Below, one piece after another: positions 10,601 through 64,000 of a DNA stretch of 64,000 bases. A program made the translations under genes and the position numbers. This DNA comes from Crocodylus rhombifer (lineage: Eukaryota; Chordata; Crocodylia; Crocodylidae). Position 1 is the stretch's first letter, and every line of letters starts with the position of its first letter. The notes beneath the pieces are model-generated. The model saw only the letters and a program-made list of their open reading frames with translations. It had not been told where the DNA came from and made no database searches. Location of the stretch: the NCBI GenBank assembly GCA_038503035.1, contig JAVSML010001075.1, positions 1-64,000 on the forward strand, written 5' to 3'.

Positions 10601-12126
10601 TCATAGACTCTAAGGCCAGAAGGGACCTTGGAAGATCACCAGGTCCAGCACCCTGCACCAAGCAGCAAAGATAACTGGGGGTCATGCAACCCCAGCAAGG
10701 TGACCATCTAGTCTCCTGTTGAAGATTTCCAGGGTAGGTGATTGCACCACCTCTGGAGGTAGCTTATTCCAGACACCCTGACTGTGAAGTTTTTCCTAAT
10801 GTTGAGCCCAAATTGGTCTTCCAGGAGTTTATGGCCATTACTCCTAGTTTTCCCCAGTGGTGCCCTGGTGAACAGTTGTTCACTGAGCCCTTGATGTACT
10901 CCCCTAGTATAGTGGTAAGCTGCTACCAGGTCCCCTCAGCCTTTTTTTTCTTCAAGCTAAAGAGTCCCAGATTCCTCAGCTTTTCTTGTATGGCTTGCCA
11001 TGTAAGACTCTGATCATATGTGTGGCTCTTCTTTGGACTCTCTCAAGCTTGTCCATGTCCTTGTTACAGTGTGGTGCCCAGAACTGGACACAGTACTCCA
11101 GCTGCAGTCTCACCAGTGCTGAGTAGAGCAGAAGAGTCACCTCCTTGGTTTTGCTGGAGATTCATCCACTGATGCATACCAGAGTATTAATTTGCCCTAC
11201 TGGCTACAGCATTGCATTGCAGGCTCATATTCATACTGTGGTCTATTATTACCAGCAAGTCCCTTTCATCTGTGGTGCTAGTCAGTTTGGTGTTGCCAAG
11301 CCTGTAGGTGTGCTGGGGGTTGCTCATCCCAAGGTGGAGCACTTTACATTGCTCGATGTTGAACTTCATCAGATTCTGATCCACCCAACTTGCTAGCCTG
11401 TTTAGATCCGCCTGTATCTGTAGCCCATCTTCAAGCATGAGCACACTTCCCCATAGCTGGGTGTCATCTGAGAACTTGGCGAGTGAGCTCTTCACCCCCA
11501 CATCCAAATCAACAATAAAGATATTGAAAAGTGCTAGACCAAGCACCAACCCCCATGAGACACTGCTGTCCTCTTCTTGCCAACATGACACAGATCCATT
11601 CACTACGACTCTCTGGGACCTATCCTGCAGCCAGTTTCTCACCCACCTGTCTTGGTGTTAAGCCCACAATCCTTCAACTTTCTCACAAGGACATTGTGGG
11701 ATACTAGATCAAAAGCCTTTTGAAAGTCAAGGTATACAATGTCAACGTGCTGTCTCGTGTCCAGGTGGTGAGTTACCTGGTCATAGAAGGAGATGAGGTT
11801 GGTAAGGCAAGTCCTGCCTGTGATGAAGCCATGCTGGCTGTCATTCAGAATCTTACCTTCTGCAAGCTTATTGCAGATAGACTCCTTGATAAACTTTTCT
11901 AGGATTTTCCCTAGGATGGAAGTTAAGCTGGTTGGCCTATAGTTACCTGGGTCTTCCTTCCTGCCCTTCTTGTGGGTGGGCACAACATTGGCCCTTTTCC
12001 AGTCCTCAGGGACTTCTCCAGAGCACCACAAGTTGTGGAAAAGTTTTGCCAGGGGTTCCACAATGACTTCAGCCAGCTCCTTCAGCACTCTTGGATGAAG
12101 ATCATTTGGTCCTGCTGATTTGTACA
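10598..12126 (-). mobile_element. CR1 LINE nested in the Tx1-like LINE
   Basis: This minus-strand CR1 copy of about 1.5 kb has its 3' tail at the low-coordinate end (ATTCATAGAGTCATAGACTC at about 10598). It encodes part of reverse transcriptase: SAGPNDLHPRVLKELAEVIV and [19 protein letters not shown] at 11950-12120, VDIVYLDFQKAFDLVSHNVL near 11700, and FSDDTQLWGS near 11450. The flanking Tx1-like reading frame continues directly from one side to the other, so this CR1 is younger than the LINE it split. It has several frame breaks. Confidence 0.92.
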
Positions 12127-13490
12127 TGGGCATCTTTCCAGCCTTCATCAGCTGGATAAGGATGCTGTACATGGATGTGAGCAGTGAGGTGCTGGTCAAT
12201 GGGTTCCTGAGCATGCAGATCATGATAGCATCGTTCCATCAGGGCTGCCTGCTCTCCCTGATCCGTTTCATCTGCACCACTGAACCCCTGGCCCAGTGCA
12301 GGACTCCATGATGAGCAGAGTCCAGATCTCTGGTGGAAGCAAGGAAGAGACCAGGGTCCTGGCCTATATGGTTGACCTGAAGCATGTCACCCACAGAATT
12401 CAGAGAGCCATGTGTGTCTTCTTCTGGGAATCAAGAGGAGAGAAGCTTGCAAGGGAGACCCTGTACAAGAAGAAATAAACTGGGGGCAAGGGGATACCAG
12501 ACTTCTTCCTGTTCCTGCGAGCAAGGTACATGAGCCAGATCTGTAAGCTGGCAACCAGTGCACAGACCAAAACATCCTGTCTCATCAGGTATTTTGCAGG
12601 TTGCCTCCTGAGACTATGGCAGGTGTATGCACCAACCAGTAGGAGACTGTGGACCCCTGGTTCTACAGCATCCTGAATGAGTTCCTGAGTGAGTACAGGC
12701 TACAGAATAAAGGCCCAGTGAATATGTCAAACCATAGGAGGATACAGAAGGCAGTCAGAGCCAAAGACATGCTATCAACAGTGGAGCTGCTCCCTGATGA
12801 TGACTGCCAGGCCGTCTGGGAGTGGATCTCCCACAAGGACTTACAAAAGTAACACACAGACCTGAACTAGCTAATAGCATGCTGCACACTCCCAGCAATG
12901 GCGTGTAGACACAGAGAAGGACAAGGGTCTTGACCCAACTGCCCCAGGGAAATCTGCCAAGGCACAACAGAGACCATTGGCCACCTCCTATGGCTCTGCT
13001 CATACGCCAAGGGTGTGTGGAAAAAGGCAAACCAGCTCCGCAAAGAGGTGAGAGGGGTCAGGCTAATGACGAGGGAGGTGGTGCTGTACAGACACCTTAC
13101 TAAACATCAGGGGACCCCGAAAACCTGCTTCAACCAGTTCATGTCCTGAGTCAGGAGCGCCCTATGGAAGTCCAGGAAACTCCTGATATACAGACACATG
13201 AACCTCAAGGAAACAGACTGTGTTAAAATGTTTATGATTGAACTCCAGTTCTACTACCAGAACCCAGTGGGAGAGGACAGAGAAGATGCAGCCAACTCCA
13301 CCTGGAAAAGGGACACTTGGCACATGCTCTTCAAAGACCTAGACTCTAGAGGGGAAGTGGACAAGGATAGTGAAGAGGACAAGATAACCAGACCTGGAGA
13401 CTGTGAAGATGACAGCAGCAGAGTCAGCAGCAATGGAAGCAACAGCAACAGTGACAGCAAAAGCAATGATGACAGTGAATGAACTGAGAA
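12127..13490 (+). pseudogene. Tx1/L1-like LINE ORF2, second segment
   Basis: The sequence continues the interrupted reverse transcriptase: FPAFISWIRMLYMDVSSEVL, then FHQGCLLSLIRFICTTEPLA (the palm region near 12240-12290). Further on comes a C-terminal zinc-knuckle-like region (ETIGHLLWLCSYAKGVW near 12970) and a C-terminus rich in Ser, Asp and Asn (13360-13482). The catalytic aspartates are degraded (LAYMVDLK where the family has two adjacent aspartates). Stops and frameshifts occur throughout. The Ser/Asp-rich tail reaches its stop at 13480-13482. Confidence 0.72.
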
Positions 13491-24900: not shown

Positions 24901-24989
24901 TTGTTTCCGTCTTCATACCCACTTGGTCAGTGCGAACTTCAGCATCTCTCCCTCTGAAATATGCTTACAATTGACTGGAGACTGTGCCC
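21903..24989. other. No gene; intron-like DNA with a purine-rich microsatellite
   Basis: I see no coding or RNA gene. A short AGGGAGGGAGGG tract lies at about 22652-22677. A 121-codon frame at 23735-24100 has no recognisable domain and no supporting splice sites. The remainder is unremarkable. Confidence 0.4.
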
Positions 24990-26060
24990 CATCTTCTTAA
25001 TAATGATAAAAAATGCAGACACAGAATGCTGTAAACCCACAGAATTAGATGGGTGGGAAACTGGCTGCAGGGTCAGACACAGAGTACTAATAGATGGATC
25101 CGTCTCAACCTGGCAGAAGGTAGCCAGTGGGGTCCCCCAGGGTTTAGTACTTGTACTGATGCTTTCTAACAACTACATAAATGATCTGGCTGTGGGGGTG
25201 AAAAGCACACTAGAAGAGTTTGCAGATGACACTAAGGTTTGGGGAAGTGTGGACACACCTCACGGCAGGCTGAATATCCAGGAGGACCTAGGCCAATTAG
25301 TTGGATGGGCGGACCAGAACCAGATACTGTTCAACACTGAGAAGTGTAAAGTGCTCCACCTGGGGAGGAAAAATCCGTAACAAACTTACAGGGTCAGTGG
25401 TACTACGCTAGTCCGACCATAAAATGAATACCAGGCACCAGTGTGATTCTACATTTAGCAAAGCAAACAACACCCTAGCATGCATCAACCGATGCATCTC
25501 AAGCAAAACTAAGGAAGTTATTCTGCCGCTCTGCTAGATATTGGTGAGGCCACAGCTGGAGTACTGCATCCAGTTCTGGGTGCCACACTTCAAGAAAGGT
25601 GTGAAGAAGCTTGAGTGAGTCCAGAGAAGAGCCATTTATATGATTAGAGGCCTGAAAAGCAAGCCATACAAGGAAAGGTATGGGACTGTTCAGCCTAGAA
25701 AAGAGAAGACTTCGGGGGGATTTGGTGACAGCTTACAAATATATCAGGGGAGAGCATCAGGGGCTAGGCGAACAACTATTCACCAGGTGCCCCAGGGGAA
25801 AACCAGAAGCAACCCCTAGAATATTTCAGACTGATTGTAAGGAAAAATTTCTTCATGGTTTGCGTGACCAGACTCTGGAATAGATTCCCGGTGGGTGTGG
25901 TGCAGGCACCTACCCTGGAGATCTTCAAAAGGAGACTAGATGCACACCTTGATGAGGTTATTTGACCCTACCAGTCTTTTCTGCCTAGAATAGGAGGGGC
26001 TGCACCTGATGCTCTCACAACGTCCCTTCCAACCCTAAACTTGTGCGAGTCTATGAATGC
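24990..26060 (+). mobile_element. CR1 LINE, 5'-truncated
   Basis: A plus-strand CR1 of about 1.05 kb. A continuous frame to 25380 encodes the reverse transcriptase palm: VLIDGSVSTWQKVASGVPQG, then EEFADDTKVWGS with the catalytic Asp pair intact, then FNTEKCKVLHLGRKNP. After a frame break the C-terminal region continues (LFSLEKRRLRGDLVTAYKYI at about 25690, where GLFSLHK is usual). The 3' end lies near 26055 (GAGTCTATGAATG). The missing 5' part is typical of CR1. Confidence 0.92.
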
Positions 26061-28732: not shown

Positions 28733-29529
28733 TTCATAGATGTAGGGTCAGAGGGGACCTGAGCAGATCATCAAGTCTGACCCCCAGCACTGGACAGGAA
28801 TGAATACTGGGCTCATACAACCCCCACTAAGTTAAGCTCATATGACCCTAGTCAGGTAGTTATCAAGTCTCCTTTGAAAGACCCCTAAGGTAGGAGCCAG
28901 CACCATTTCCCTTGGAAGCTGGTTCCAGATCCTGGCCAACCTGACTGTAAAGTAGTGCCTCCTGATGTCTAGCCTGAACCTACTCTCAATCAACTTGTGG
29001 CCGTTATTCCTTGTTACTCTGGGAGGTGCTTGGGGCAATAGGGTCTCACCAAATCCCCTCTGGTCCCCCCTGGTAAATTTATAGACACCCACAAGGTCCG
29101 CTCTCAGCCTTCTCTTGTGCAAGCTGAACAGGTCCACGTCCCTTAGCCTCTCCTTGTAGGGTCTGCCCTGCTGACCCCTGATTATGCGAGTGGCCCTCCT
29201 CTGGACCCTCTCCATGCTGGCCTCATCCCTCCTGAAGTGCAGTGCCCAGAAGGACGCACTACTCCAACTGTGGCCTGACCAGTGTAACAGAGAGGGGGAG
29301 GATCACCTCCTTGGACCTGCTTGTGATGCATCTGTGGATACATGACAAGGTGCGGTTAGCTTTGCTTACCACATCCTCACATTGGCGGCCCATGTTCCTA
29401 TTGGAATCAATAATGACTCCAAGATCTCTTTCTGCCACTGTGCTTTCAAGAAGGCAGTTCCCCAGCCTATAGGTATGCTGCTGGTTCTTCCTGCCCAAGT
29501 GCAGTACCCTGCACTTGTCAGTATTGAAT
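28733..29529 (-). mobile_element. CR1 LINE, 3' part
   Basis: The minus-strand CR1 3' end begins at about 28733 (AGATTCATAGATGTAGGGTC). An open stretch at 28838-29215 encodes ERVQRRATRIIRGQQGRPYK and FSLHKRRLRADLVGVYKFTR, the conserved C-terminal region, followed by HKLIESRFRLDIRRHYFTVR. The copy is split at 29529 by a solo LTR and continues at 30538. Confidence 0.92.
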
Positions 29530-49117: not shown

Positions 49118-49248
49118 CTAGGGAGTCTGTTTTATTTTCTACCGTTTCGTTCACCTTTCTTGCAACTCTGGCTACAGCTTCTCCCATTCTTTTCTGCATG
49201 CAGACGACTTGTCCCAAACGGGAAGCTCTTCCACAGGAGAAACTGTGA
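49118..49248 (-). CDS. LRRC20: LRRC20, exon with start codon
   Basis: The ATG lies at 49197-49199 on the minus strand and the exon encodes MQKRMGEAVARVARKVNETV before the donor at 49117 (CTCCCTAG followed by GTAAGTT). This closely matches the N-terminus of vertebrate LRRC20. The 82 coding bases end in phase 1 and join in frame to the exon at 36571-36720. Upstream, 49 bases of 5' untranslated sequence lead to an acceptor (TTATCTCTTCAG) whose AG complements 49249-49250, so at least one untranslated exon must lie further upstream. The Polinton begins only about 190 bp beyond this acceptor, so it sits in the 5' intron. Confidence 0.93.
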
Positions 49249-49437
49249 CTGAAGAGATAAGAACAGTAAGGTTCCAGAATTCTAACAGTTCACAAAAAGT
49301 CAATGCCAGGACAAGTGCTCCCAAAATTTGAGAAAGTAGTAAGATACTTACTTTAAAAGAATGAGGGCTCCCAACTGATAAAGCAGAAGCTATGTTAGTA
49401 GTATATAGGCTCTCCGCCCTTCAATGCAAAATGTGAC

Positions 49438-50184
49438 AGGTGGGCGGGACTTCCGGTCCTTGGCCACGCCCCCTTCCCCCTGTATGGTGTGAGACTTCAC
49501 CAGTCCCACCCCTAGCCCCGGTCACATGATGCCAGTCACGTGGCATATGACATCAGCAACTCCGCCCCCAACTCCAGTCACGTGGTGTCTTACATCAGCA
49601 ACTCTGCCCCCACCTCCAGTCACATGGTGTGGACATCAGCAACTCTGCCCTCATACCCCAATCACATGCTGTGTGACACCAGCACCACATGATCCATGAC
49701 ATCAGAAGGACAGCCCATGCAGACCCCCAAAGCCCAACCCCTCAGCCTACAAGAACCGCCCTAGACCATGTGGTGTAGTTATGGCCTATCAGATCCCAGA
49801 CTAATCTAGCCCCCCGCTGGAGCACAGGCGTGGTCTATGGGGTGGCAGGGTGGTGGTATGACCACTCTAACAACCTGCCCCACCACCCACCAGGTCTATC
49901 TGCTTTCCCAAACAACCACTCTGTTTATCTGAGACTGTGCTAAGCCAAGCGGGGCGGATATGGATTCTTTCACAACGCCTGTAGGCCCACTCACTACAAC
50001 CCCAAGACGGCTTTATAGAAAGCGTTACCGTAGAAATAGTTTTGAGGAGGAGACACGGCCCCTTGCCCAAAGACTCTTTGAGATGCCTGACCCTGTTCAG
50101 GAAGATCCAATGAACAGGCAAATGGAGGAGGCCCAGACCCTCGAAGCAGATGTTGAGAATTTGGAAGAGGGTATCTTTGTGCCA
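49438..50184 (+). repeat. Polinton left terminal inverted repeat
   Basis: The sequence matches the complement of 63197-64000. Aligned stretches include CTTGGCCACGCCCCCTTCCC near the tip and TTGGAAGAGGGTATCTTTGT at the inner end, where similarity stops at GCCA (50181-50184). The arm contains a ~42-bp tandem array and the first 75 codons of the spliced gene. It lacks about 95 bp that the right arm has (63490-63585). The outermost 20 or so bases are less clearly paired, so the tip coordinate is approximate. Confidence 0.9.
49530..49690. promoter_or_regulatory. 42-bp tandem array in left TIR (E-box/CRE-like)
   Basis: Copies anchored on GTCAC(G/A)TG occur at 49536, 49578, 49619 and (as ATCACATG) 49661, about 42 bases apart. 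Each includes a TGACATCAGCAACTC-type half and a GCCCCCA run. Two copies keep the perfect E-box CACGTG (49537-49542 and 49579-49584). Their position upstream of the exon at 49960 suggests a promoter/enhancer. Iterated elements near Polinton ends could alternatively serve replication. Function is inferred. Confidence 0.7.
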
Positions 50185-50894
50185 GAGCCTGCATGCCAAG
50201 TAGAGGTCATCGCAGAGGAGAGACCGGTAAGAGATTTGGAGCATGTTTGTGGGGGCACTTGGGTTTTCAGTGTGGGTTCACTCCATGACATGTGTGTGTT
50301 TGGAAGTACTGATTAAACAGCAGCTAACTAACCAAGTCCTTTATTTGAACTCCTCTACAGTTAGATGAAGCCTTTTTAATAACTCCAGAAAACCTACTCA
50401 CCAGTACACAAGAAGGAGGTGTACGCTTTTGCAGAGAACAAAGACCAGATGAGCCTGAGGAGTTCAGAAGACATCTAGCCATTGAATCAACACAAGCTAT
50501 TACATCATGCAAACCTAAAGTCTTTATGAAGTCTCTTGTTTGCGTTTTATTTTATGGCATAATTAAATACTGCTTGAGGAAGAGACCTTTTGACCTATGC
50601 TGGGGCAGCACATTTGACCTAGAGGGTCAAGAAGCCCATGAATGTCTTACTTGGTTAGATGAAGACATAAACAAAAGAATTCAGGAACTTTGCCAGGAAA
50701 TATGTCTTGATAGCATTTTCAATGCTGTTATAACCATTGGATTTGCCAGGAACATTCTCAGAATTACTGTGAAACATTTAATTCAGGTTAGAGAGCTTCT
50801 AAACACTGTGTATTCTGCAGAAGATCCTAATGCTGCCCTTCATGATTTGATCACTGAGGAAGATAAAACACTCATACCCATATTGAACGTTTAA
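49960..50894 (+). CDS. TIR-linked spliced gene, intact, unknown function
   Basis: Exon 1 (49960-50226) begins at an ATG with G at -3 and +4 and encodes 89 codons, starting MDSFTTPVGPLTTTPRRLYR, with an Arg-rich patch and an acidic second half. The donor is CCG|GTAAGAG at 50227. A short intron ends TCCTCTACAG at 50360. Exon 2 (50361-50894) adds 177 codons in the same phase, giving about 266 residues with no interruption. Exon 2 contains a hydrophobic stretch (SLVCVLFYGIIKYC) and an amphipathic helical C-terminus (ITVKHLIQVRELLNTVYS). I do not recognise the family. Its location, upstream of the polymerase at the element's left end, is where adintoviruses keep variable accessory genes. It is the only sizeable gene of the element left intact. 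Exon 1 lies almost wholly in the TIR, so it is duplicated at the other end. Confidence 0.72.
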
Positions 50895-52230
50895 TTGGTA
50901 CTAGAGATTATAAAACCCTGCTTAAGAGATGGGCTTAGCAAAAACTGTTTAAAATGGGGGCTGGGGAGTTATATCTTTTGCTGATCTTGGTGGGAGGGTA
51001 AGGGATGTGAGGTTGTAAAGCACATCAACAGTTTTCTACAGCTAATGTACATTAGCATTTGCTTTAGTGTCTTGGATCTCTAATCACATACAGATAGGAT
51101 TTTTTGTAAAGATAAAACCAATGAGACTTAATGACCACTAGAAATGATAAAAAAAACCTTCAGAGCTCTTCTTGTTTTAAGACTAAAGTAGTTATCTTTT
51201 ACCAAAAGGCCAGCTGTAAAGATAAGGCCAACAAGGCTTAATGGTCACAGGAAATGAAAAACACTTCTTAGAAGAAGGTTTAACAAAAGAAATCACTAAA
51301 TATTATACAAGTTTTTGATGGAAATAAAGACTGAATTTAAAAATATATTCTCACAGATTGTGTATGGTATGGAGTGGCAGGTGTGTATCATAAAGATAAA
51401 CCAGATCAAAATAAATAAATATATAAAAGCTGATCAGATCTCCACATATTTTAAGACTAAAGGGGTGGAGTTGTCATTTAGTGGTGACTATTTTAATACA
51501 GTTAGATTTTACATTATACATACACTATTTTCCTTAATCTGTTATTTAATTTTTTAATACAGAGGACTTACTTATTGTATCATTTCATTTATATTACAAA
51601 GAGCTTATCAGGTGGGGAAGTCCCATGCAATTTTACCACAGCAAGGTAAAAATTATTTTAAAATGGTAGGTTATTTGTGGCTGTGTTACTGTAATCATAC
51701 TAAGTTGTAACAGCTGTTTATTTTCAAACAGTACCTCTTCTTCTAAAACAGAAAAGCAGAACAAGCACATACAGTTGTGTTTTTATCCAGTAGTAAAAGG
51801 TAATTTTTCTGAAATCAGCTTCTGAAACTTTGTTTTTTGTGGGAGGAGAAGCAGTGTGTGTGGGGGAGGTGTTAAGCAAATTTTAAATTTGTAGTGTGCG
51901 AGGAAAGTGAATTCTCAATGCTGAGATGTCAATTTTATATTTCCTAATTGATCACATGCAACACTCCTGAAGAAGAGTGGGAGTCTCTAAAAGCACAAGC
52001 AAAACCCCCCAGAAATGCTCACCCTGCAGATCATAATACACAAGGATCAGAAGACCACCAAGACAGAACAGAAGGGTATGATTCCTCAGAGGAAAACAAG
52101 CCACGTACCTCTTAGAAAACCACATGTAAAAAGACTAGGATTCATACCCCCAAAACAGGTGATCTGGACCCCTTGAATAAGAAACCGAGGACTGATTACT
52201 CATACAATTTAGAGAAAGAGGAGGTCTCTC
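50895..52230. other. AT-rich spacer between TIR gene and polymerase block
   Basis: No gene is recognised. A diverged direct repeat of about 55 bases starts with TGTAAAGATAA at 51107 and again at 51216. A TATA-like ATATATAAAAGCTG lies at about 51419 and could drive the downstream block. Short frames around 51315-51557 are AT-driven. Confidence 0.5.
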
Positions 52231-52234
52231 TCCT

Positions 52235-52480
52235 TTTCTGAAAGATCATGATTATTGTGAAAAAAGAGGATGTATTTTCAGGGTGCGTATAACCATCTTG
52301 CCTTGAAAGATAATGATTATTGTGAAAAAAAAGAGGGTGGGTTTTCAGGGTGGGTATAAATCTTGAAAGATCATGATTATTGTGAAAAAAAGAAGGGGGT
52401 TTGGGGTGGTACTGGTAGGCGTATACATCTCAGAAAGAGTGTGCAGAGAGCCTTGAAAGATCGTGATTACTACCAGAGCG
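52235..52480 (+). repeat. 60-90 bp tandem repeat with repeated peptide
   Basis: The core TGAAAGATCATGATTATTGT recurs at 52239, 52304, 52364 and, diverged, at 52454. The 60- and 90-base spacings keep the reading frame and repeat the peptide LKDHDYCEKK / LKDRDYYQSE. The 65-base spacing does not. Confidence 0.85.
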
Positions 52481-52812
52481 AAAGGGTAAATTTTACTCAG
52501 AGAGGAGGTAGTCTGTGCAACTCGGACAGCAGGCATGGTCTGTATCATAAGAGGGGGAGTCATGGTAAACACAGGGGTAAAAATGGGTGGCAAACCAGCA
52601 AGCGGCTCATGGGGCGAAAAGTAAGGGCCTGGTTAAAGAGGAATGTGGGGAAGGCTAAACACTTGTTGAGGAAAAAAAAAACCAAAAAGAGATCCCCTAG
52701 GGATCCCTCAAACACTTCTCCTCCTTCCAGTCCTGACCCTTCACCAGAACCCCCGGAGCCAGAGAAAGGGGGTGGAAAATATGGTTTAGGAAGCCCATTA
52801 GAGAGTCCCTGA
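52363..52812 (+). CDS. Basic, proline-tailed hypothetical protein or exon
   Basis: An open frame of 149 codons starts within the tandem repeat. The middle is very basic (SKRLMGRKVRAWLKRNVGKA, then LLRKKKTKKRS) and the end is rich in Pro and Ser (SPPSSPDPSPEPPEPEKGGG). It lies just upstream of the polymerase and points the same way. It could be a DNA-binding accessory protein or a 5' exon of the polymerase transcript. A good donor (GCAG|GTGAGAAG at 53069) and acceptor (CCATTACAG at about 53160) further on support splicing in this region. I do not recognise the family, and the ATG is not well supported. Confidence 0.4.
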   Translation: MKDHDYCEKKKGVWGGTGRRIHLRKSVQRALKDRDYYQSERVNFTQRGGSLCNSDSRHGLYHKRGSHGKHRGKNGWQTSKRLMGRKVRAWLKRNVGKAKHLLRKKKTKKRSPRDPSNTSPPSSPDPSPEPPEPEKGGGKYGLGSPLESP

Positions 52813-53159
52813 CATGTACCCCAGCCTCTCAGATCTGACTTTTCACCAGGACCCACAGAGGGGAGATGGTGACTATGACTTAGGAAGACTGTTAGAGGGT
52901 CCCTCAAATGTTCCCTGACCACCTAGGCCTCCCCCACCACCAAGACCTGGAGGGTCAGAGGGTCGGGATAACGAATCTGGTGTAGAAGATAGTTTAGAGG
53001 ATCCCTTAAGCGCCCCTGGGACTTCTGAGTCATCAGAGGATGTTTTACTGGATGTACATATGGTGCAGGTGAGAAGGCAAGAGTGGTCTGTAGCCAGGTT
53101 TGGTGGCACGAGGTACACAGAGGAGCTCCGTTTGTGAATTTGGAGTGTGTGCCATTACA

Positions 53160-56100
53160 GGTGGCATACGAAGCCATAATCCGAGGGGTGGAAGAAATTG
53201 TAGCAGAACTCCGACAGAGATTCACAGGCAATGACTAAGCACAGTTACGTATTCAGGCAGATAGCATGGCAAACTGTTTATACTCACGAGCTATTAATTT
53301 AAACAATTTGACCCCAGAGCTGTTTTTAGAGTGGTTCAGTAACCTGTTAGAGAGATATATTGCTCGATTCGACATTTCAGCTGTTTGTGATTGTTGTGAA
53401 GGGCCGTGGATGTGAAAAAGGTGTCTGGCACGAGAAATTATTGCAATCTTTCTCAGACGTTGTACAGCCACAGCCACACGTGCAGGTTCCGATGTCGTCT
53501 TTGCCTGAGCCCAAACTGCTCTGAAAACATGGGCAGGACACAGAGGTGCCCTAACTGTAACCTGTTCTGTCATTCCAAAGAGTGCTTAGAAAGGCACGTG
53601 GCCCTGGCCTCTGAAAAACAGATTGAATGTCTGACTAAAACTCTGCGCGATAAGTGTAAATCTTATGTGGACAAAAAGCACGAGTGCAAGGGGCAGCAGT
53701 GCAAACAGTGTTATGGGAAAAATCACAGATGTAAACAAACACTGGTGCTTTATGCATCAGATTAAAGAGCTTGAAGAAGGCAAGGGGTACATTTTTTATG
53801 ACTTTGAATGTGTGCAGGAGACGGGGATGCATGTGCCCAACTACATTTTTCCAACAGAGCTAAAGACAGGGGAAAAAAAACCGCAGAAAGCCAAAACCCC
53901 AAAAAGGCTTGTAAAGCTAAGCCCAAAAAGACAGAAAGCACTTGGGAGTTTAAGGGCAAAGAGTGCCTATCTGATTTTATTAAGGTCTTTATGGATAAAA
54001 AGGTCAAGGACTACACCTTCATAGCTCACAACACCAAAGGCTATGATGGTTACTTCGTTGTCAGCCAGTTACTGAAGGAAAAAATGGACATGAAACTAAT
54101 CACTCAGGGTGGTAAACTCATGTGTATTGAAGTGACCAGGCTAGGCATCCATTTCATAGATTCTTTAAACTTTTTGCCAATGAAACTTAGCAGGCTTCCA
54201 CAGGCAATGGATGCAAAGGTTATTTCCCACATTTTTTTTAACACAGCAGAAACCAGAATTATGTGGGGCCTCTCCCAAAGATGGAGTATTACAGCATTGA
54301 AAATATGATGGCTGGTGAGAAAGGACAGTTTTTAGAATGGTATCAGAATAACCGCAATAAGACCTTTGACATGCAAAAGGGGCTGGCCTATTATTGCCAG
54401 CAGGACATAAAAATTTTGAAAGAGGCCTGCTGCCTCTAAAGGGATGAGATTATGAAAATGACACGGCAGGTAGACCAAGTGAAAGTAGATGGTGAACTCC
54501 AAAATGTAGAACGCTGCATAGATCCTTTCCGATACATCACGCTGGCCTCCATCTGCATGGCCATGTACGGGTTTATGTTTTTGGAACCGCAGACCATAGT
54601 GCTTCTCCCCCTGGACAACTATCACAGACAGAAAAAGAGATTTTCAACCCCATCTATTCAGTGGCTAATGTACACTTTGGAGAAAGAACACATTCAAATT
54701 TGACATGCTTTACAGGGTGGGGAATTTCAGGTAGGCCCCTATTTTTTAGACGACTGTGCCAACATTGATGGGGCACCTATGGCGTTTGAATTTAACGGAT
54801 GCTTTTTCCACGGTTGTGTCACTTGCTACAATGAGACAGAACAGAACCCATTGATGGGGACCACCTTTGGGTTTCTGAATTATTAGGCATTGCACAAGAC
54901 CAATTATCTCATGAGAGAGGGGTTTATCATTAGGACCATTTGGGAGCACGAGTGGAGGGCTCTGTTAGAAACAGATAGGGACCTGGCAGATTTTTTAAAC
55001 AGAACCCCGCTGCCTTCTCCACTGGTGCCTAGGGATGCTCTTTTGGGGGGGAGAATTAATGCCATCTGTCTATATTACCAAACTAAACCTGGCGAACAAA
55101 TACACTATTAGGATTTTACCAGTCTTTACCCCTTTATATACAAAACAAAGGAATACCCAGCCAGACACCCTGAAGTCATTTGTGACAATTTCCAACCCCT
55201 GTCGAGCTATTTTGGAATAGCCAGGGTGAAACTGTACCCACCGCAAAACCCTTTTTTTCCTGTGCTACCCACCAGGGTGAATGGGAAACTTATGTTCACG
55301 CTGTGCCACCTCTGCGTGGAAACAAGACAGCAAAGGTGCTACCACACTGATGAAGAGAGGGCCCTCCTGGGTACGTGGTGCACACCAGAATTGAATAAAG
55401 CTAATCGCCAAGGGGTACAGAATAGCTCAATTCTATTAAGTCTGGCATTTTGCCAAGAAGTCTAGCACCCTTTTTTCACAGTACATAAAAATGCACCTCC
55501 GACAGAAGCAGGAAGCCTCAGGGTACCCCGCCTGGCATACTGACCAAGAAAAACGAGAGATACATGGCCAATTTCTTGCAAAAAGAAGGCATAACATTAT
55601 GCCCAGAGCATATCAAACCCAACCCTGCAAAGCGCCAAATACCAAAATTGTTTCTAAATTCTTTGTGGGGTAAATTCGGTCAGAGAACCAACTTGCCCAA
55701 CACCAGCATTGTTAGAGACCCCGAAGAACTCTTTGGCTACCTCTTTTCTCCCACTTATGAAATTTCATCTTGTGCCTTTATTGATGATGAGGCAGCTTGC
55801 ATGTTTTGGAAACACGCCAAAGAGCGTTACACTGGCTCTGGTAACACAAACATCTTTATAGCCTGTTTCACCACCGCTTATGTACGCTTAAAGTTGTACT
55901 AGCCGTTACACAGCTTGCAAGACTGGTGTCTGTACCACGACACAGATTCTGTGATATTTGTGAGCCACGAGAGAGATTGGAACCCCCTGGTAGGTGATTA
56001 TTTAGGCGAGCTCACCAGCGAAATCCCACCAGATGAACACATCACAGAGTTTGTGTCGGCCGGTCTGAAAACCTACGGGTACAAGTTGTCCGGGGGAAAG

Positions 56101-56364
56101 GTTTGCTTGAAGGTCAAAGGGATTACCCTGAATGTGGCCAACAGTGAAAAAGTCAACTTTGAAACCTGCAGAGATCTTGTTCTAGATTACGGGGCAAACC
56201 CTGCTGTGGACACCCCTAAAACAATTGTGATACAACAGCGCTCTATCGTCAAGAACAAAAGCAAGTGGACAATAGAAACCAAAACCTTGAGAAAAATGCA
56301 GAAAGTTGTTTATGACAAAAGGGCCCTCACAGAAAACTTTAACAGCCTCCCCTATGGTTTTTAA
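53160..56364 (+). pseudogene. Protein-primed DNA polymerase B (Polinton), decayed
   Basis: This polymerase replicates linear Polinton genomes by protein priming. In order I see an N-terminal region (VEEIVAELRQRF), a Cys-rich zinc-binding stretch near 53480-53600 (CPNCNLFCHSKECLERH), exonuclease motif I (YDFEC, catalytic Asp and Glu at 53800-53808), exonuclease motif II (AHNTKGYDGYF at about 54025), palm motif A (DFTSLYP at 55112-55132), motif B (NSLWGKFGQ near 55660) and motif C (YHDTDSV at 55933-55953). Catalytic residues are largely kept, but the frame is broken many times: early stops, a frame change between the Cys-rich part and motif I, a stop at 55109-55111 immediately before motif A, and one at 55900-55902 before motif C. 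The stop at 56362-56364 overlaps the ATPase start by 11 bases. Confidence 0.92.
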
Positions 56365-57018
56365 AGATGGATATGCGTTGGAAGCACCCTTTTCTGTGAT
56401 TTTGGCAGGCCCTAGCAACTGTGGTAAAAATTACTTTATAAAAAACCTTTTGCATCACACTGATAAAATGTTATGCCTGAGAATATCGTGTGGTGCTATA
56501 GCTGTTGGCAGCCTTTGTGTAAAGAACTGCTTTGTAAATATCCTTTTATCAAGTTTGTGGAGGGTCTACCGGACAGTCTCAGTGATGACTGCTTCTTCCT
56601 AATAAAATATATCTGGTTGTAGTAGATGATTTGATGGACTCTGCCTGTCACAGCAGCAAAAATCGAGAAAACTTTTACCAAGTACGTGCACCACCGGAGT
56701 CTGAGCATTATGTATATAGTTCAAAATGTTTTCTGGCAAGGGAAAAGGAACCGCACCATTGCCCATAACACAAAATACATGGTCTTGTTTAAAAACCCCA
56801 GGGATAAGCTACCAATAGTGTCCCTGGTGCGGCGGATGTACCCAGGTAAGGCCCAGTTCTTTCTAGAAGCTTTTGAGGATGCCACTAAAACACCTTACGG
56901 GTATCTGGTGGTTGATTTAACCCCGGATACTTTTAGATTAAGAACTGGGCTTTTTCCTCCCAAACAACCGGCTACTTACACTTTTAAAAAAACAGCGGGT
57001 GGGAATAAAAAGAGATGA
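56354..57018 (+). pseudogene. Genome-packaging ATPase (FtsK/HerA-A32 type), decayed
   Basis: This ATPase would drive DNA into the capsid. The Walker A motif GPSNCGKN is at 56408-56431. The Walker B motif VVVDDL at about 56616-56633 is followed by a stretch typical of Polinton ATPases (LSIMYIVQNVFWQGKRNRTI, then MVLFKNPRDKLPIVSLVRRM). Walker A, Walker B and the C-terminal part lie in three different frames, so at least two frameshifts have occurred (about 56470-56610 and 56640-56690). The last 110 codons are open and end at 57018. The start overlaps the end of the polymerase gene, a compact arrangement usual for these elements. Confidence 0.9.
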
Positions 57019-57064
57019 TGTAGTGGCGGCCTCTTCTTAGCTCTCGAGACGGTGGAAGGGGAAC

Positions 57065-57393
57065 ATGTCTAGCTGCGTAAAAAGAAATTTGGCTCTCTTA
57101 AAACTGCTTCTTCGATCCTCCCCACAGCAGAGAAAAGCTATACTCTGCCCGGCCTCTGATGATTTAGTAGTGGCCATTTCAGAAATTGCTCTGAACACCT
57201 TAAAAGGAAACATCCCTTTGACACCGCATCAAATTCACGTGCTGAAAGAGATGCGGGATCATAAAAAACCTAAGTAACAAAAGATTGCATCTTAAAAAAA
57301 AGAAACAGCTGGTGAAACAGTCTGGGGGATTTATTGGACCTCTGCTAAGTTTTGCTCTTCCTCCGATTACGGGGCTTTTGGCTAGCCGGTGAT
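57065..57393 (+). pseudogene. Small conserved Polinton protein, C-terminus shifted
   Basis: The frame 57065-57277 begins SSCVKRNLALLKLLLRSSPQ and contains VVAISEIALNTLKGNIPLTP, a signature I recognise as recurring in Polintons of many animals, usually near the ATPase. It stops at 57277. In another frame just downstream (57279-57393) is the basic and then Gly/Leu-rich hydrophobic end seen in relatives (KKKQLVKQSGGFIGPLLSFA, PPITGLLAS), so a frameshift has separated the two halves. Function is unknown. The hydrophobic tail suggests membrane or capsid association. No homology to a characterised protein is claimed. Confidence 0.75.
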
Positions 57394-58068
57394 GGAGCAC
57401 GCAGAAGAAATGTACCTGGTGCCCAAACACAAGCTGGAACAATTAAGAGCTCCCCCACCACCTCAGGAAAATATCAGAACTGAGGCAACCCACTTATTGG
57501 ATGTTGAAATGAGGGATATTCTCCAAAGACCGGGTTTAGCAGAATATGATAAGGCTATATTGTATGCATCCATGCTTCAGAAATACCTGACCTACATAAA
57601 GCAGGGTGATCTGGACAGAGGGAAATTAACCCTATTTCTGCTGGAACAGACCCTCCTAGAAGCTGGATACCCCCTAGAAACCCCCACAAAACCCGACACA
57701 GTTGTTCAGGAAGTATTGGATAATGTGCATGCCCAATACAGGAAACATGCTAAAGTACTGCTCACTAAGCTGAGCCAGCACAAGGATATTTCTTCTTGGG
57801 ATGATCAAGGGGGTTTTGTCTACAAACGGATGCTCGTCAAGGCGTCTAACATGCTCGACTTGGTCCGGAGAACCCTTCAGACTCACGCCGGGACATCTTT
57901 ATGAAAGCCATAGCCAAGCTGAACGTACCATCTTCTGTTATGGGCAACGTCATGAATCGTGATCATCTGGAACGCCTGAAAGTATCTGACTCAGACCAAG
58001 AAACACCAACAACACTGCCTAAGAAGCAAAAAACTGTCTCTAAAAGCCATTGGCATTTAGACATGTAA
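57392..58068 (+). pseudogene. Conserved Polinton hypothetical protein, late frameshift
   Basis: The ATG at 57392 opens 171 codons beginning MEHAEEMYLVPKHKLEQL, with a helical middle (YASMLQKYLTYIKQGDL) and the segment WDDQGGFVYKRMLVKASNML. Proteins with this opening and a Trp-Asp-x-x-Gly-x-Phe-Val-Tyr segment recur in animal Polintons next to the small protein above. The role is unknown and may be structural. The frame stops at 57902-57904, but a plausible C-terminus rich in Lys and Ser continues in another frame to the TAA at 58066-58068, so a single indel near 57890 seems likely. The start overlaps the end of the previous gene. Confidence 0.72.
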
Positions 58069-58253
58069 AGTTTTACGCTTTGAAATAAACTATTCTATAC
58101 TGCTATAAAGTTTTTGTTTACAGAGGATTTTTTGAATGAAAACATGCACACACATTTAAATAACAACAGCTTTATTTACACAACATCAGCTGAGTGTTTT
58201 ATTTAGACAAAGCATTCATAAAAGTCATAGCAAGAAATACATGTCTGGGCATG
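58069..58253. terminator. Convergent polyadenylation region
   Basis: AATAAA on the plus strand at 58084-58089 lies 16 bases after the last rightward gene. TTTATT at 58171-58176 gives AATAAA on the minus strand, about 80 bases past the stop of the leftward protease gene. The two transcription blocks therefore meet tail to tail here. Confidence 0.75.
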
Positions 58254-58760
58254 TTAAAACATGTTTTGAGCAGGCCTGGCCATGTGGAAATTTTTATATT
58301 TACTTCTTACAAAACGCATCACCACTCTATCATTTTGTGCTAAATCGCCAGAATAATACAAATTTAAAATCTGTTCAGATGATAGCTCCTTGCTACAGTG
58401 GTGCAGGAAAAACACACAATGGTATTCACAGGCAACAGACTGGGGGGTCTTCTAACTGTTTCGTCTGGAAAACAGTGTCGGTAGTGTTCTCATTTAAAAA
58501 CAACATAATGCTTTGAGGAAAGACAGCGCTGTTTGGGGGTGACCATACGAGTCGAAAAATTCTCCACGGTTCCAATCCTCCAAGTAAACAGCCGACCAGC
58601 GTTCTCCGGGTTGATTATGCAGGTGCATGTTGACCACCAAGCTCAGGGGCCTTCTGGGCAGTCGAGTCTTAGGAAGCTAGTCACAGGGGAAAACGTCTAA
58701 GAAAGTTTCTTTGGCATAAGGGTCTGAGGATAAAACCCTGACGAGCTGTTCGGTGTCCAT
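58254..58760 (-). pseudogene. Adenain-like cysteine protease, decayed
   Basis: Homologues mature capsid proteins in adenoviruses and Polintons. The minus-strand ATG at 58758-58760 opens MDTEQLVRVLSSDPYAKETF, followed by a stop after FLDVFPCD. Further on are VVNMHLHNQPGERWSAVYLE and RGEFFDSYGHPP, then a frame change and YHCVFFLHHC with the expected nucleophile region. Where the family has the catalytic His-Trp pair, this copy has Arg-Trp. At least one stop and one frameshift, together with the lost histidine, make it inactive. It begins two bases after the stop of the major capsid gene. Confidence 0.88.
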
Positions 58761-58762
58761 CT

Positions 58763-60071
58763 TCACATATAGTCAAACAGGACATTTCTCCTCTCATTTA
58801 TTTCTATGACGTTGTCAAAGACCCCATACACAATCATGTTAACCGTGGTGGGCAAAGCCGCAGCAAAGCGTATTTCTGCTCTCCAGTTCCCGGTTTTAAT
58901 CAGTGAATAATGATCAGCACACTCCTGGTCAGGGGACAGGTCAAAGGCAAATAAGGTCTACCCCAGAGCAAACTCCTCACGGTTGATTATCAGGGCCTGG
59001 TCTTTCGTATGTTTACCAGCTGTCTGTACCAGCTGCATGTATTCTCTCACACAGTTACCGTTCTCAAAATCTGGTTGTAGGGGCGTTGTTGGGGTTTGTT
59101 CTCCATCGACGTAGAGGGCCACAAAATTAATATTGTAAGGTTTCAAGTTAAAGGGGTTCTTAGCATAAATTCTTGTTAAGGCATCGTTATCCACGAATCC
59201 GATGACGATGAGTTTGGGCAGCTGCCCCAGAAACAGATTCTCCTGGTTGCTGACGTGGCTGCCAGCAGGAATGCTAAACACTTTCATACCCACGTGGTCT
59301 ACAGGGTACTTAGCACTGGCCATAAGCAAGGCCTCCGCGTGGCCCAGTTGGATGCCCAGTGCTACCTTCACTTTTTTCACAAAAAGTGAGGCAGATGTGA
59401 ATTTTAGTTTACAGGGGCCAGCTGCTGCAGTACCCATCAAGCAGAAGGCATCTTTGCTGTGTGTCAGCTTAATTTTCACATCCACGCCATTCAGCAAGTT
59501 TTTCTTGAAAAAATAAATTGCTATGGAGATGACTGAGCAATTCTATCTTTTTGCTCCAGTCTGTCAGGTTTGCCTGTCTCTGAAACCCCTGATTATTGCT
59601 ATCCCGCGCAACCGTTTCATGACGGCCGGGGGTATTTTTGTAAAACAGGCCGGTAGAAAATTGTGTGGTGAGGGTGTCATCGCTGTAGTTGAGAACTGAT
59701 TCGATGAAAGCTCAGTAGGGGTAACAGTTGTTGCTCTGACTTATCAGACGATCTCCCAGAGTGACATCCAGCTGACTGAAGACAGAGGCTAGTGGGTAAT
59801 TCGCCAAACCCACTGCTGTCCCAGCATCAAGATCAGTTCCATCGCCTTTCACAATCTTGCAGCAAAGGTACAGCAGCGTATTGTTCAAATCCATGTAATC
59901 TTCACGATTCCCAGCTATGAAAAAGTCAAAGGGCCTGGACTCGGTAATAGCTGAGTGCAGGGGGATCTCAACATACAGGCTTTTCTCAATTCAGGTCTGC
60001 GTAGAGGCTATTTGAAACACATCCAGTTCAGATTTGGTGCATTCTGCAGACCCGCAGTGAACAAAGGCCAT
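58763..60071 (-). pseudogene. Major capsid protein (double jelly-roll, hexon-like), decayed
   Basis: The minus-strand ATG at 60069-60071 opens AFVHCGSAECTKSELDVFQI, and the frame ends at a TGA at 58763-58765, about 436 codons in all, near the usual length for Polinton capsid proteins. Characteristic stretches are YMDLNNTLLYLCCKIVKGDG, then KYPVDHVGMKVFSIPAG, LFLGQLPKLIVIGFVDNDAL and FVALYVDGEQTPTTPLQPDF. Relatives are often labelled 'uncharacterized protein F54H12.2-like' in animal genomes. In-frame stops occur after IASTQT, at 59712-59714 after NCYPY, and at 58958-58960, and there is a frame change near 59500. It lies between the pX-like and protease genes in the usual order. Confidence 0.92.
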
Positions 60072-60160
60072 GGCAGTTAAAATATATTTCTGTTTCCTCC
60101 AGGAGAGTGCCCCTTCTTTCTCCCAGGCTGCTGCTTGGTTTTTCGTGTCTGGCTGCCCCG

Positions 60161-60556
60161 TCAACTTACCCCCTTCTTTTTAAGGGGTTGAGGAGGTACT
60201 GCACATCCAGAGTCTGTTGCATCTCTCTTTCTTTTAAGGCTCTTTCTTTGAATATACATGAGACCAGACCCCTTCTGCTTTGCTGGCTTGACCACCTTAT
60301 CTAGGGCAGCTTGGGAGATATGACCAATCACATCTTTGGCTATGTTTTGTGCTGCATTTTTAGCGTGAGGCTTAATAATCTCCAGACCCCTTCTCAAAAG
60401 TGGAACGGCTTTTCTAAAGAGGCTGTGAAATATGCCTTCCATACCTGCCCCATATATCACTGGCACCCCCCGATATCCAGGAAGACCATACCGAGCCTGG
60501 GCTTTATAATAATTTCTGTACAAATTAGGGTGCCCATAGTTTTTTACCATCGCCAT
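60161..60556 (-). CDS. pX-like basic virion core protein
   Basis: A 131-codon frame is open from its ATG at 60554-60556. It starts MAMVKNYGHPNLYRNYYKAQ and has a Tyr/Gly/Arg-rich N-terminus (GLPGYRGVPVIYGAGMEG), an amphipathic middle (LFRKAVPLLRRGLEIIKPHA) and a Lys/Arg-rich tail (QRKSLKRKRD). Small basic proteins in this position of adintoviruses are compared with the adenovirus core protein pX and would bind DNA or tether it to the capsid. The frame is intact, but it is short enough to have escaped damage by chance. It starts 17 bases after the end of the penton gene. Confidence 0.7.
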   Translation of the reverse strand: MAMVKNYGHPNLYRNYYKAQARYGLPGYRGVPVIYGAGMEGIFHSLFRKAVPLLRRGLEIIKPHAKNAAQNIAKDVIGHISQAALDKVVKPAKQKGSGLMYIQRKSLKRKRDATDSGCAVPPQPLKKKGVS

Positions 60557-60572
60557 TGTGCTTTTACTTATT

Positions 60573-61332
60573 TTAAAATCTCAAAGTCTTCCGGGGGCGT
60601 ACGTGAAGCTTAACGATCACCTTGCCAAAGCGAAATGAGACGTGTTTGTTCTGATCCATCTTTATTTCAATGCTCCATCTTTATTTCAATGCTGATTGTG
60701 TCAGTGTGGTGCTGGTTGATGGGGACATAATGCGGGTTGTCATATGTGATGGTGACAAACCCGTTGTTGCTCCCACAGACAGGGATGCAACGTAGCAAAG
60801 ATACTGAAACTCCCCGACAAGCTAATGTTCCACAATGCTCATGTAGACATACAGCCAATTGAACCCACCGGTAATATCAGCAGCGAAAGGTGTTTTTTTT
60901 AGCAGAGACTCTGGGTAGCATTCCCAAAATATAGGTTAGCTCACCATGCATATAAAAACCATAAGAGTTCTCTTTGGATTTAAGTCTCACTTTCCCGAAT
61001 GCTCGGTCATAGTGCATAACTAGTTTGGGCGGAGCAGGATGGGTGGTAATTGTATTGTTTATAAGATCCAGTAATTCTGTGATGGTTGTATAATACCCCC
61101 AAGGCAGGCTGTACCCCCATTTTTCAGTCCCAGAAATTATTCTGAAAGGCGTGTCTTCGTTGATGTTGTTCCAACTGTGCAGGTATTGTATTTCTGCTAA
61201 CCCTATCTCCCAATTCCCCAGCAGATCCAGAGGTTTAACCAGTTGTATGGTAAAGCTTGAGCTGGTGTTCTGCAGAAAAATGCTGGCGCATGCATTGCTG
61301 GGCAAAGTAATGTAAAAGTGTAAAAGTTGCCA
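60573..61332 (-). pseudogene. Penton-like minor capsid protein (single jelly roll), decayed
   Basis: The main frame below 61305 reads LPSNACASIFLQNTSSSF, then PLDLLGNWEIGLAEIQYLHS, as in Polinton minor capsid proteins that form the fivefold vertices. It shifts after GMLPRVSAKK. A second frame (60858-60667) carries ACRGVSVSLLRCIPVCGS and DNPHYVPINQHH. A 19-bp tandem duplication (60656-60674 and 60675-60693) then shifts the end, after which FRFGKVIVKLHVRP runs to a stop at 60573-60575. A short repeat GTGTAAAA near 61310-61330 disturbs the N-terminus, and no in-frame ATG precedes it. Confidence 0.88.
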
Positions 61333-61611
61333 TCACACATCTCGGTCTTCTGTCTGAGGTACCCCTACGTGTTACGAACTTGGTTGGCTTCCACACAACT
61401 GTTAAATTTAGACGGCCACCCCAACCATTTCACCAACAACCGCTTCTTTCTTCCCTTTCCTTTCATTGCTAGAACGTTTTCAACCCTGTAAACTCTGTCC
61501 TGTTTGAGGTTCACTTTTTGTAGTTCTTCAGGGTACAAAGAACTCTCGGTAGGTTCATCTTTGTAATCTTTTAGGCAGTATACAGGAGTCTGCACGTGTC
61601 TAAGGACTTCA

Positions 61612-61805
61612 TAGACAGATTTCATAGACATTAGGGCTGGAAGGGACCTCGCAAGATCATCAAGTCCAGCCCCCGCCCCAGGGGCAGGAAGTGAGCGGGG
61701 ATCAGATCACCCCAGCAAGATAGACGTCCAAATGTTTGTTAAAGGAGTCCAGAATAGGTGCCTGCACCACGTCTGTGGGGAGTCTATTCCTGACTCTGGA
61801 GACTT
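61612..61805 (-). repeat. CR1 tail inserted in integrase gene
   Basis: The low end carries the CR1 terminus (GACTTCATAGACAGATTTCA, then GACATTAGGGCTGGAAGGG). The interior encodes the CR1 C-terminal phrase RLPTDVVQAPILDSFNKHLD. It lies in the same orientation as the integrase gene and separates the core from the chromodomain. Confidence 0.88.
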
Positions 61806-62140
61806 GGAGCTACTCATCAAGGACTGCCCAGCTTTCACTCCATTTGTCAACAGGCCTCCCTCTTAATAAAGCCTTAAAATGTATTGAATGAAGAAAATTG
61901 AAATGTTCTACTGCACAAAATTGCTTGTTTAATTTTTCATAGCGTTTAAATATGTTATTAGCAGGGACCCGGGTTTTCCATTTGTCATGGAAAAATTTGG
62001 ACATTCTCCTTTAAAAGGAGAAAGGGGGGCAGGGGGAGCTCTGATTTTCCATGATAAAAAAAAACAAAATCAAATGCCAAAATATATAGGTATTTAGAAT
62101 TTATTTTATTATAATGATTGAGGCACTGGTAGGACTTCAT
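61806..62140. other. Unassigned sequence between CR1 tail and integrase core
   Basis: These 335 bases belong neither to the recognisable integrase nor clearly to CR1. An open frame of 64 codons on the minus strand (61810-62004; WKTRVPANNIFKRYEKLNKQ) has no family that I recognise. It may be another insert, or DNA carried by the CR1 event. Confidence 0.4.
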
Positions 62141-62696
62141 CCACTATAAAATCTCATCGGTGAATGTTTGTTCATAACCTTTTTCAAACCTCCCTTTGGT
62201 CCTAGACAGTCTCACGTGGTCTCCTTTTCTAAACACAGGTGCTGCTGGTTTTATTTTGAAATAGTCCCCGTACACGGTTTTCCACACCCTTTGAGAGTTT
62301 GAGAAGTTCATCTCAACCGGCCTGGTGAACATAGTTCTGTTAAAACTGTGGTTGTAGCTCTTTATAAACTGTGGTAACACATCAATGTAGCGAAAGGTGT
62401 TGCAGGCTATAAAATACTTCCACATCTTTGATTTTAATGTTCTATTAAACCCCTCTACCACCGCTGCTTTCACATCACTATTAGTCATGAAATGGTGAAT
62501 ATTATACTGTTTTAACAGCTTGCTTAAAGACTTATTTAAAAATTCTTTTCCCCGATCAGTCTGTAATTTTTGAGGTACACGGCCTTCTGTAAAAATGGTT
62601 TTAAAGGCCGGGGCTATTTCACCACCTGACTTGTCTCTTAGACCACAGCCCAGGCATACTTTGATAATATGTCTATAGCTGTTAAGATTGAACACC

Positions 62697-62822
62697 TTCA
62701 AGAGTAAATTGGATGCTTATCTTGCTGGGATCCTATGACCCCAGCTGACTTCCTGCCCTTTGGGCAGGGGGCTGGACTCGATGATCTCCCGAGGTCCCTT
62801 CCAGCCCTAATGTCTATGAAAT
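62697..62822 (+). repeat. CR1 tail inserted in integrase gene, opposite strand
   Basis: Plus-strand CR1 3' end: TTGGATGCTTATCTTGCTGG, GGGCAGGGGGCTGGACTCGA, then CCAGCCCTAATGTCTATGAA. It splits the integrase catalytic domain between the first and second acidic residues, and it is inverted with respect to the CR1 tail at 61612-61805. Confidence 0.88.
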
Positions 62823-63196
62823 AAGATGAACTTAACCCCACCACTGTGCTTGGAAAACTGCTGCATATCCACCAAATCTGCCTGCAATTGCGCATCACTA
62901 TCTGAAACAACTGTCTTGTTTCTTTTAAAACGCCTTCTTGCCGGTTTGTGTAGGGTGTAAGTATGCTGATCTGAAAGCCAAGCGGCCACCCCCTTCTGTT
63001 CAGAACCTTATTCTGTCTTTTGGTGGCTTCAAAAAGCGTGTTCACCCCACCAAAACTGCCAGCTTCACCAGGAGAGTAATAAACTTCCTTTAACATAGCC
63101 TCCTGTGTAGACATGTCTGGTAACCGCTTCCCCCAACACACACCCACGCTAACACCCTTGTGGTGCATTCAAACGCTTGAGGACAAATTTAAACCA

Positions 63197-63420
63197 TGGC
63201 ACAAAGATACCCTCTTCCAAATTCTCAATGTCTGCTTTGAGGGTCTGGGCTCCTCCATTTGCCTGTTCATTGGATCTTCCTGAACAGGGTCAGGCGTCTC
63301 AAAGAGTCTTTGGGCAAGGGGCCGTGTCTCCTCCTCAAAACTATTTCTATGGTAACGCTTTCTATAAAGCCGTCTCGGGGTTGTAGTGAGTGGCCCTACA
63401 GTGGTTGTGAAAGAATCCAT
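63197..63420 (-). pseudogene. Right-arm copy of the TIR gene's first exon
   Basis: This minus-strand copy of exon 1 starts at 63420 (MDSFTTTVGPLTTTPRRLYR) and is nearly identical to the left copy for 57 codons. A single base is missing where the left copy reads GGAGGCCCAG, which changes the frame. Similarity ends at 63197, before the position of the splice donor, so this copy cannot splice to exon 2 in the same way. It lies upstream of the integrase in the same orientation. Whether it once supplied a leader for that transcript is unknown. Confidence 0.8.
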
Positions 63421-63775
63421 ATCCGCCCCTGCTTGCCTTAGCACAGTCTCAGACAAACAGCGTGGTCGCTTGGGAAAGCAGATCAACCTGGTGCGGTTGC
63501 CACCCAAATCCCACCCCCTCTACTCATTCCAATTGGTTCAGCATCACTCTTTGGAGGTCTGAGGCCTCTGAAGCCTCTGCCAATTGGTTGGGGGTGGTGG
63601 GGCAGGTTGTTAGAGGGGTCACACCACCACCCTGCCACCCCACAGACACCTGTCTGGGACCCGATAGGCCATAACTACACCATGTGATCTAGGGAGGTTC
63701 TTGCAGCCTGAGGGGTTGGGCTTTGGGGGTCTGCATGGGCTGTTCTTCTGATGACATGGACCATGTGGTGCTGGT

Positions 63776-63955
63776 GTCACACACCACGTGACTGGGGTGT
63801 GAGGGTGGAGTTGCTGATGTCACACACCACATGACTGGGGGTAGGGGTGGAGTTGCTAATGTCACATACCATGTGACTGGAGGTGGGGGCGGAGTTGCTA
63901 ATGTCACACACCACATGACTGGGGGCAGGGGCAGGGCTGGTGACGTCACACACCA
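63776..63955. promoter_or_regulatory. 42-bp tandem array in right TIR (E-box/CRE)
   Basis: Five copies anchored on GTCACA(C/T)ACCA start at 63776, 63819, 63861, 63903 and 63944, spaced 41-43 bases. The first keeps a perfect E-box CACGTG (63785-63790), and the last forms a perfect CRE, TGACGTCA (63941-63948). It is the counterpart of the left-arm array. In this orientation it lies upstream of the right exon copy and the integrase, so it probably served the leftward transcription block. Confidence 0.72.
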
Positions 63956-64000
63956 TACAAGGGGAAGGGGGCATGGCTAAGGGGGTGGAGCTTCCGGTCC

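Follow-up and report, generated by a model that had tools for sequence, protein, structure and literature searches.

A predicted spliced accessory gene at the left end of a decayed Maverick/adintovirus element in Crocodylus rhombifer

The gene and the element that carries it

We analysed 64,000 nucleotides of the Crocodylus rhombifer genome (assembly GCA_038503035.1, contig JAVSML010001075.1, positions 1 to 64,000 of the forward strand; hereafter the window), in which a two-exon open reading frame of 266 codons lies at the left end of a virus-like element of the Maverick/Polinton (adintovirus) kind. Exon 1 (49960..50226, plus strand) begins with an ATG at 49960 and has 89 codons. Exon 2 (50361..50894, plus strand) has 177 codons and a TAA at 50892-50894, with a C-terminus that leaves the frame of its family after about 50879. 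The predicted intron between them (50227..50360, plus strand) has the donor GTAAGA and the acceptor CTCTACAG ending at 50360, and is of phase 0. A preliminary description of this DNA had listed the start, donor, acceptor, phase and stop-free 177-codon second exon, and all were found where it placed them.

The gene starts inside a long terminal inverted repeat. A repeat finder paired inverted arms at 49458-50184 and 63197-63982, and the roughly 13 kb that they enclose includes pieces of a polymerase and of a likely integrase. The left repeat (49397..50184, plus strand) is taken to start at an AGTAGT at 49397-49402, a motif seen at the left end only, as the window stops short of the right end; (AGT)2 is the published end motif of vertebrate Mavericks in the portion of PMC8097293 consulted. 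The right repeat (63197..64000, minus strand), placed by arm pairing and arm alignment, is clipped by the window end. Codons 1-75 of exon 1 lie within the repeat, and the exon-1 donor lies outside it, beyond the paired part of the arms. The right repeat holds a second copy of codons 1-75 (63197..63420, minus strand), which has no exon-1 donor and whose frame is broken where the aligned arms show a gap of one base.

Each repeat also contains a tandem array of the same 42-bp unit, with 3.6 copies on the left (49532..49684, plus strand), where cAMP-response-element-like (CRE-like) and GC-box-like sequence was seen, and 4.3 copies on the right (63775..63955, minus strand). Motifs were counted over the whole arm upstream of exon 1, not over the array alone, and compared with 300 shuffles per arm. 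The CRE-like TGACRTCA occurred twice in the left arm and twice in the right, where the shuffles averaged 0.03 and 0.02 occurrences; neither count was reached in any of 300 shuffles. GC boxes occurred 6 and 2 times (means 0.67 and 0.4; reached by 0/300 and 28/300 shuffles), and CACGTG 2 times and once (means 0.18 and 0.17; reached by 2/300 and 48/300). These counts are overstated, because a tandem array multiplies any motif. The array may act as a promoter or enhancer.

Between the repeats, a type B DNA polymerase piece (53808..54305, plus strand) passed the Pfam cut-off for DNA_pol_B_2 (27.0 bits, cut-off 25.8), and a likely integrase piece (62147..62701, minus strand) matched rve with an E value of 1.2e-5 at 25.9 bits, below the cut-off of 32.6. 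Judged from these features, the enclosing element is a decayed virus-like Maverick/Polinton (adintovirus). It resembles the vertebrate Maverick/Polinton elements, as far as the consulted portion of PMC8097293 describes them, in its long terminal inverted repeats, its AGTAGT end, its accessory regions at the ends, and in having the polymerase piece and the likely integrase piece on opposite strands, pointing inwards. The same source gives 96% of vertebrate Maverick copies as defective.

The piece at 58961-59497 had no Pfam match and no relative in viral_contigs, and viral_contigs likewise held no relative of exon 2, of the gene family or of the piece at 55915. One weak integrase stretch in viral_contigs (L001) was not used. 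A repeat at 62689-62822 adjoins the integrase piece and has inverted partners at 61619-61751. Elsewhere in the window, open pieces at 3137-3523, 3881-4504, 11187-12223, 24961-25380 and 28838-29215 look like non-long-terminal-repeat retrotransposons of a CR1-like kind.

Relatives, the splice junction and further exons

Exon 2 matched four proteins, the best being a predicted protein of Alligator mississippiensis, LOC132252216 (P0002, 281 aa), with 79% identity over 98% of exon 2 (E 2.2e-82); exon 1 was 80% identical to it. P0002 has both exons and the identical junction but, unlike the window copy, retains the C-terminus and the cysteines described below. Its name and model are automatic.

Profile searches, which scored the 7996 and then the 7990 candidates with most shared words, widened the family. 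The first gave 16 matches at E <= 10, extending to Alligator sinensis, Mauremys and Macrochelys. Of these, P0016 (E 5.2) was discarded as chance and P0017 (E 6.9) was retained, with 95% identity over a short match. P0017 is an alligator model in which the start of exon 2 runs into polymerase-like sequence, in agreement with the gene order of the element. The second search gave 98 relatives among the candidates scored, the weakest with an E value of 5.4e-4. The named ones are turtle or alligator proteins, with the sole exception of P0084, a 116-aa hypothetical protein of Terrapene box turtle adintovirus. It matched family profile A4, which includes P0002, with an E value of 5.6e-24, while its direct alignment with window exon 1 was weak (E 0.20-0.75). 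The match to P0084 bears out the earlier suggestion of an adintovirus/Maverick accessory protein. The accompanying statement that the family is unrecognised holds only in that no named domain was found, since 98 relatives were.

P0084 has the exon-1 start MDSFTTPV, the basic and acidic stretch and the exon-1 end. After the exon-1 border, however, it has 24 residues beginning with V in place of exon 2. This tail looks like read-through of the GT donor, so that the reference virus entry would likely be without most of the protein. No second virus-named protein of Terrapene box turtle adintovirus was among the 98 relatives, although clusters may hide one.

The junction was assessed by blastp in 100 relatives (P0002 to P0102 without P0016), using exon probes cut from eight of them. 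In 55 of the 100, all eight probe sources included, exons 1 and 2 met no more than 12 residues from the common border, and in 45 exactly at it. The other 45 relatives comprised 1 with both exons otherwise arranged, 12 with exon 1 only, 20 with exon 2 N-terminal, 10 with exon 2 after at least 25 other residues, and 2 others. Among the 12 with exon 1 only, the sequences of P0083, P0087 and P0089 continue into the first residues of exon 2. Of the 10 with exon 2 internal, two (P0013 and P0014) retain the end of exon 1, while a third, P0062, is a diverged member of the family. The junction is therefore supported, but no transcript is proven, because the relatives are mostly automatic gene models.

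Segments shared with alligator proteins past early exon 2 mapped by tblastn to 51599-51646, 51703-51801 and 52742-52795. They coincide with a predicted alternative exon at 51602..51645 (plus strand; AG before, GTAAAA after), which matches the alligator models P0009, P0011, P0013 and P0015, with a second at 51732..51799 (plus strand; AG before, GTAATT after), which matches P0011 and P0013, and with the start of a further predicted exon at 52731..52795 (plus strand; AG before), which matches P0011 only. As these further exons have AG/GT borders, the two-exon form is probably one of several products of an early unit with alternative splicing. In the window copy the last of these exons contains an in-frame stop, which counts against the alternative form for this copy.

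The predicted protein and its decay

Searches of exon 2 against Pfam, PHROGs and PDB sequences returned only weak matches (best E 0.16, 0.075 and 0.51, respectively). Nor did the family profile or its members give anything at a curated cut-off or standing out in these databases, with a weak exception for REV. The Pfam REV match of window exon 1 (19.9 bits against a cut-off of 22, E 7.6e-4) looks like a product of its arginine-rich stretch and was rejected. A first structure model, built from 4 rows, was useless (predicted local distance difference test score, pLDDT, 35.2). A model of P0002 from 51 rows showed a helical domain at residues 131-270 with most blocks at pLDDT 70-91. Foldseek and VIA-align gave no standout match.

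The helical C-terminal domain would carry a CxGC...HxC motif. The full form, CxGC..[DN].[PGA].Q..H.C, is present in 27 of the 100 relatives, among which fragments are common, and absent from the window copy; a pattern search for the motif in viral_contigs gave no match. Fish Mavericks may conceivably share the motif. In the window copy the second Cys of CxGC, present in 38 of 42 other rows, is missing, as is the first Cys of CFC, which all 41 of the other rows that cover the position have. Compared with P0002, P0003 and P0004, the frame changes after about 50879, such that the last 4 residues are non-family and the family frame is lost for about 20 residues at the C-terminus. The gene had been called the one sizeable intact gene. 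With the C-terminal frame change and the two family cysteines gone it is not intact, and its exon-2 open stretch (181 codons stop to stop) is only the third longest in 49397-64000, after 194 codons at 58961-59542 and 190 codons at 62147-62716.

Over 49685-50184, the two arms differ at 31 of 472 sites, with 5 indels. Kimura two-parameter (K2P) distances between the arms were 0.041 for exon 1, 0.069 for 49685-50184 and 0.088 for 49800-49959. At 3.9e-10 substitutions per site per year, a rate taken from the consulted part of PMC4299795, these correspond to about 53, 89 and 113 My, which are rough ages, since the two arms were perhaps not identical when the element inserted. The outer part of the repeat (K2P 0.16) was excluded from the age, because the array units of the two arms are possibly misaligned there.

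Proposed readings: early accessory gene, portable exon or host gene

We think it probable, though far from certain, that the locus is a decayed copy of a predicted multi-exon Maverick/adintovirus accessory gene, whose product would regulate the element early and in the nucleus. The terminal repeat would provide a promoter at each end of the element. From the left unit, exon 1 would be transcribed and spliced to exon 2, and alternative forms would reach the exons at 51602, 51732 and 52731. The N-terminus of the resulting protein would be basic and acidic and is probably disordered, its C-terminal domain would be helical with a CxGC...HxC motif that may bind zinc, and the protein would act in the nucleus ahead of replication. 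Adenovirus E1A is alike in place and form, being encoded by an alternatively spliced left-end transcription unit and acidic, but there is no sequence match between the two. An LxCxE motif, which is a defining feature of an E1A-like oncoprotein, was found in none of the 100 relatives and in neither exon of the window.

Several results weigh against this proposal. The nuclear role, zinc binding and early timing have composition and position as their only basis, and the structure model gave no fold match that stands out. For the alternative form, no clear internal donor was seen in exon 2 of the window copy, where 50489-50530 has a single GT. The probability of at most one indel in 798 nt is 0.076 at the indel density of the whole repeat, and 0.47 at that of exon 1. 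Exon 1 is also less divergent between the arms (9/224) than the neighbouring 49685-49959 (22/248; Fisher p 0.040, post hoc), and this persists without CpG-related changes (p 0.007, post hoc) despite the frame-broken right copy. The exon-1 differences are 4 synonymous and 5 nonsynonymous (raw dN/dS 0.37, p 0.12, from two arms only). Judged by the residues of the relatives, the right arm seems to hold the derived state for 4 of these 5 replacements and the left arm for 1 (binomial p 0.375).

A different reading places the importance of the locus in its splice signals. Several relatives join one exon to host-like sequence at a splice border. In P0094 and P0098 (Platysternon, ENDOD1-like by name, with Pfam Endonuclease_NS in P0098) and in P0095 (Caretta, PRY/SPRY), the last residue of exon 1 is followed directly by other sequence. 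In P0009, an alligator TMEM26 isoform B, Tmem26 sequence gives way to exon 2 at residue 182, and exon 2 is entered at the same acceptor in P0005 (named a C8orf88 homolog) and in P0046 (an MROH-like piece, below cut-off). In P0097, parts of both exons stand ahead of a GBP domain. Two TMEM64 isoforms are listed; P0013, the one read, has a reverse-transcriptase RNase H piece in front (Pfam). These joins would be expected if the copy is unselected as a protein and host genes acquire the element's end as a portable promoter with its first exon, so that the splice donor and acceptor are what matter. However, all of the fusions are automatic gene models, and no gene-joined host exon is shown in the window. 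We regard this reading as unlikely. A possible host exon lies at 49119-49249 on the minus strand, just left of the element, as a short open stretch (1 of 3 frames) with acceptor-like and donor-like borders by eye.

The same arrangement suggests a wider model for crocodilian and turtle Mavericks, which we put forward tentatively and consider doubtful, if slightly less so. The repeats would carry a promoter and most of a coding first exon, each insertion planting a ready first exon, and one repeat would drive both element ends. Repeated chimeric host isoforms (ENDOD1-like, SPRY, GBP-domain, TMEM26 and C8orf88) would be the outcome.

It is much less probable that the host keeps the gene, with the copy or its transcript in cellular use after capture and the protein altered at its C-terminus. 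The 266 stop-free codons, the retained exon-1 donor and exon-2 acceptor, the unbroken left exon 1 next to a broken right copy, and the low exon-1 divergence between the arms speak for such use. Against it stand the frame change, the lost family cysteines and the equally long open stretches elsewhere in the element. Conserved residues are not spared either: in a test with six relatives, the window deviates at 5 of 43 invariant and 14 of 130 variable columns. This is a weak test, because the control P0002 is patterned like the window (11/54 and 22/119; P0003 gave 1/31 and 3/87). Against four core relatives, the corresponding counts were 6/48 and 21/125 for the window, 1/35 and 5/83 for P0003, and 4/26 and 12/68 for P0004. 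Nor did the 51-row alignment separate the window from P0002, with deviations at 3 of 16 and 3 of 17 columns that are at least 93% conserved.

When neutral decay was simulated with 0.02-0.05 substitutions per site in each arm, 798 nt stayed stop-free with a probability of 0.60-0.30. With that chance, the C-terminal frame shift and the lost cysteines, the earlier suggestion that selection may have preserved the gene after capture is not supported. The host-manipulating or antiviral potential suggested with it received no direct support from these analyses. The survival of the gene appears unremarkable, because it was picked as the most open of several, and that it is open today is probably due to chance and not to use by the host. 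A role as a viral apoptosis inhibitor of the Bcl-2 kind is more improbable still, for all that the modelled C-terminal domain is all-helical and Bak, F1L and BCL-xL are weakly listed in structure comparisons.

In the consulted portion of PMC8097293, vertebrate Mavericks have eight conserved intronless open reading frames, whereas the accessory gene in the window is predicted to be spliced and to start inside the repeat. The main text of that paper contains no word starting with 'splic'. Although this kind of element is known, we did not find this gene structure described in the literature searched; the founding adintovirus paper (veaa055), outside that search, may describe the gene.

This case also shows that host use is only weakly indicated when an old element retains an open frame. 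The proposed accessory gene gives an unnamed vertebrate Maverick/adintovirus protein family a predicted structure: spliced, alternatively so, and with its start within the terminal repeat. That exon 1 starts within the repeat suggests where such elements would begin transcription and, if the host fusions are true, they would represent a recurrent route for viral exons into vertebrate genes.
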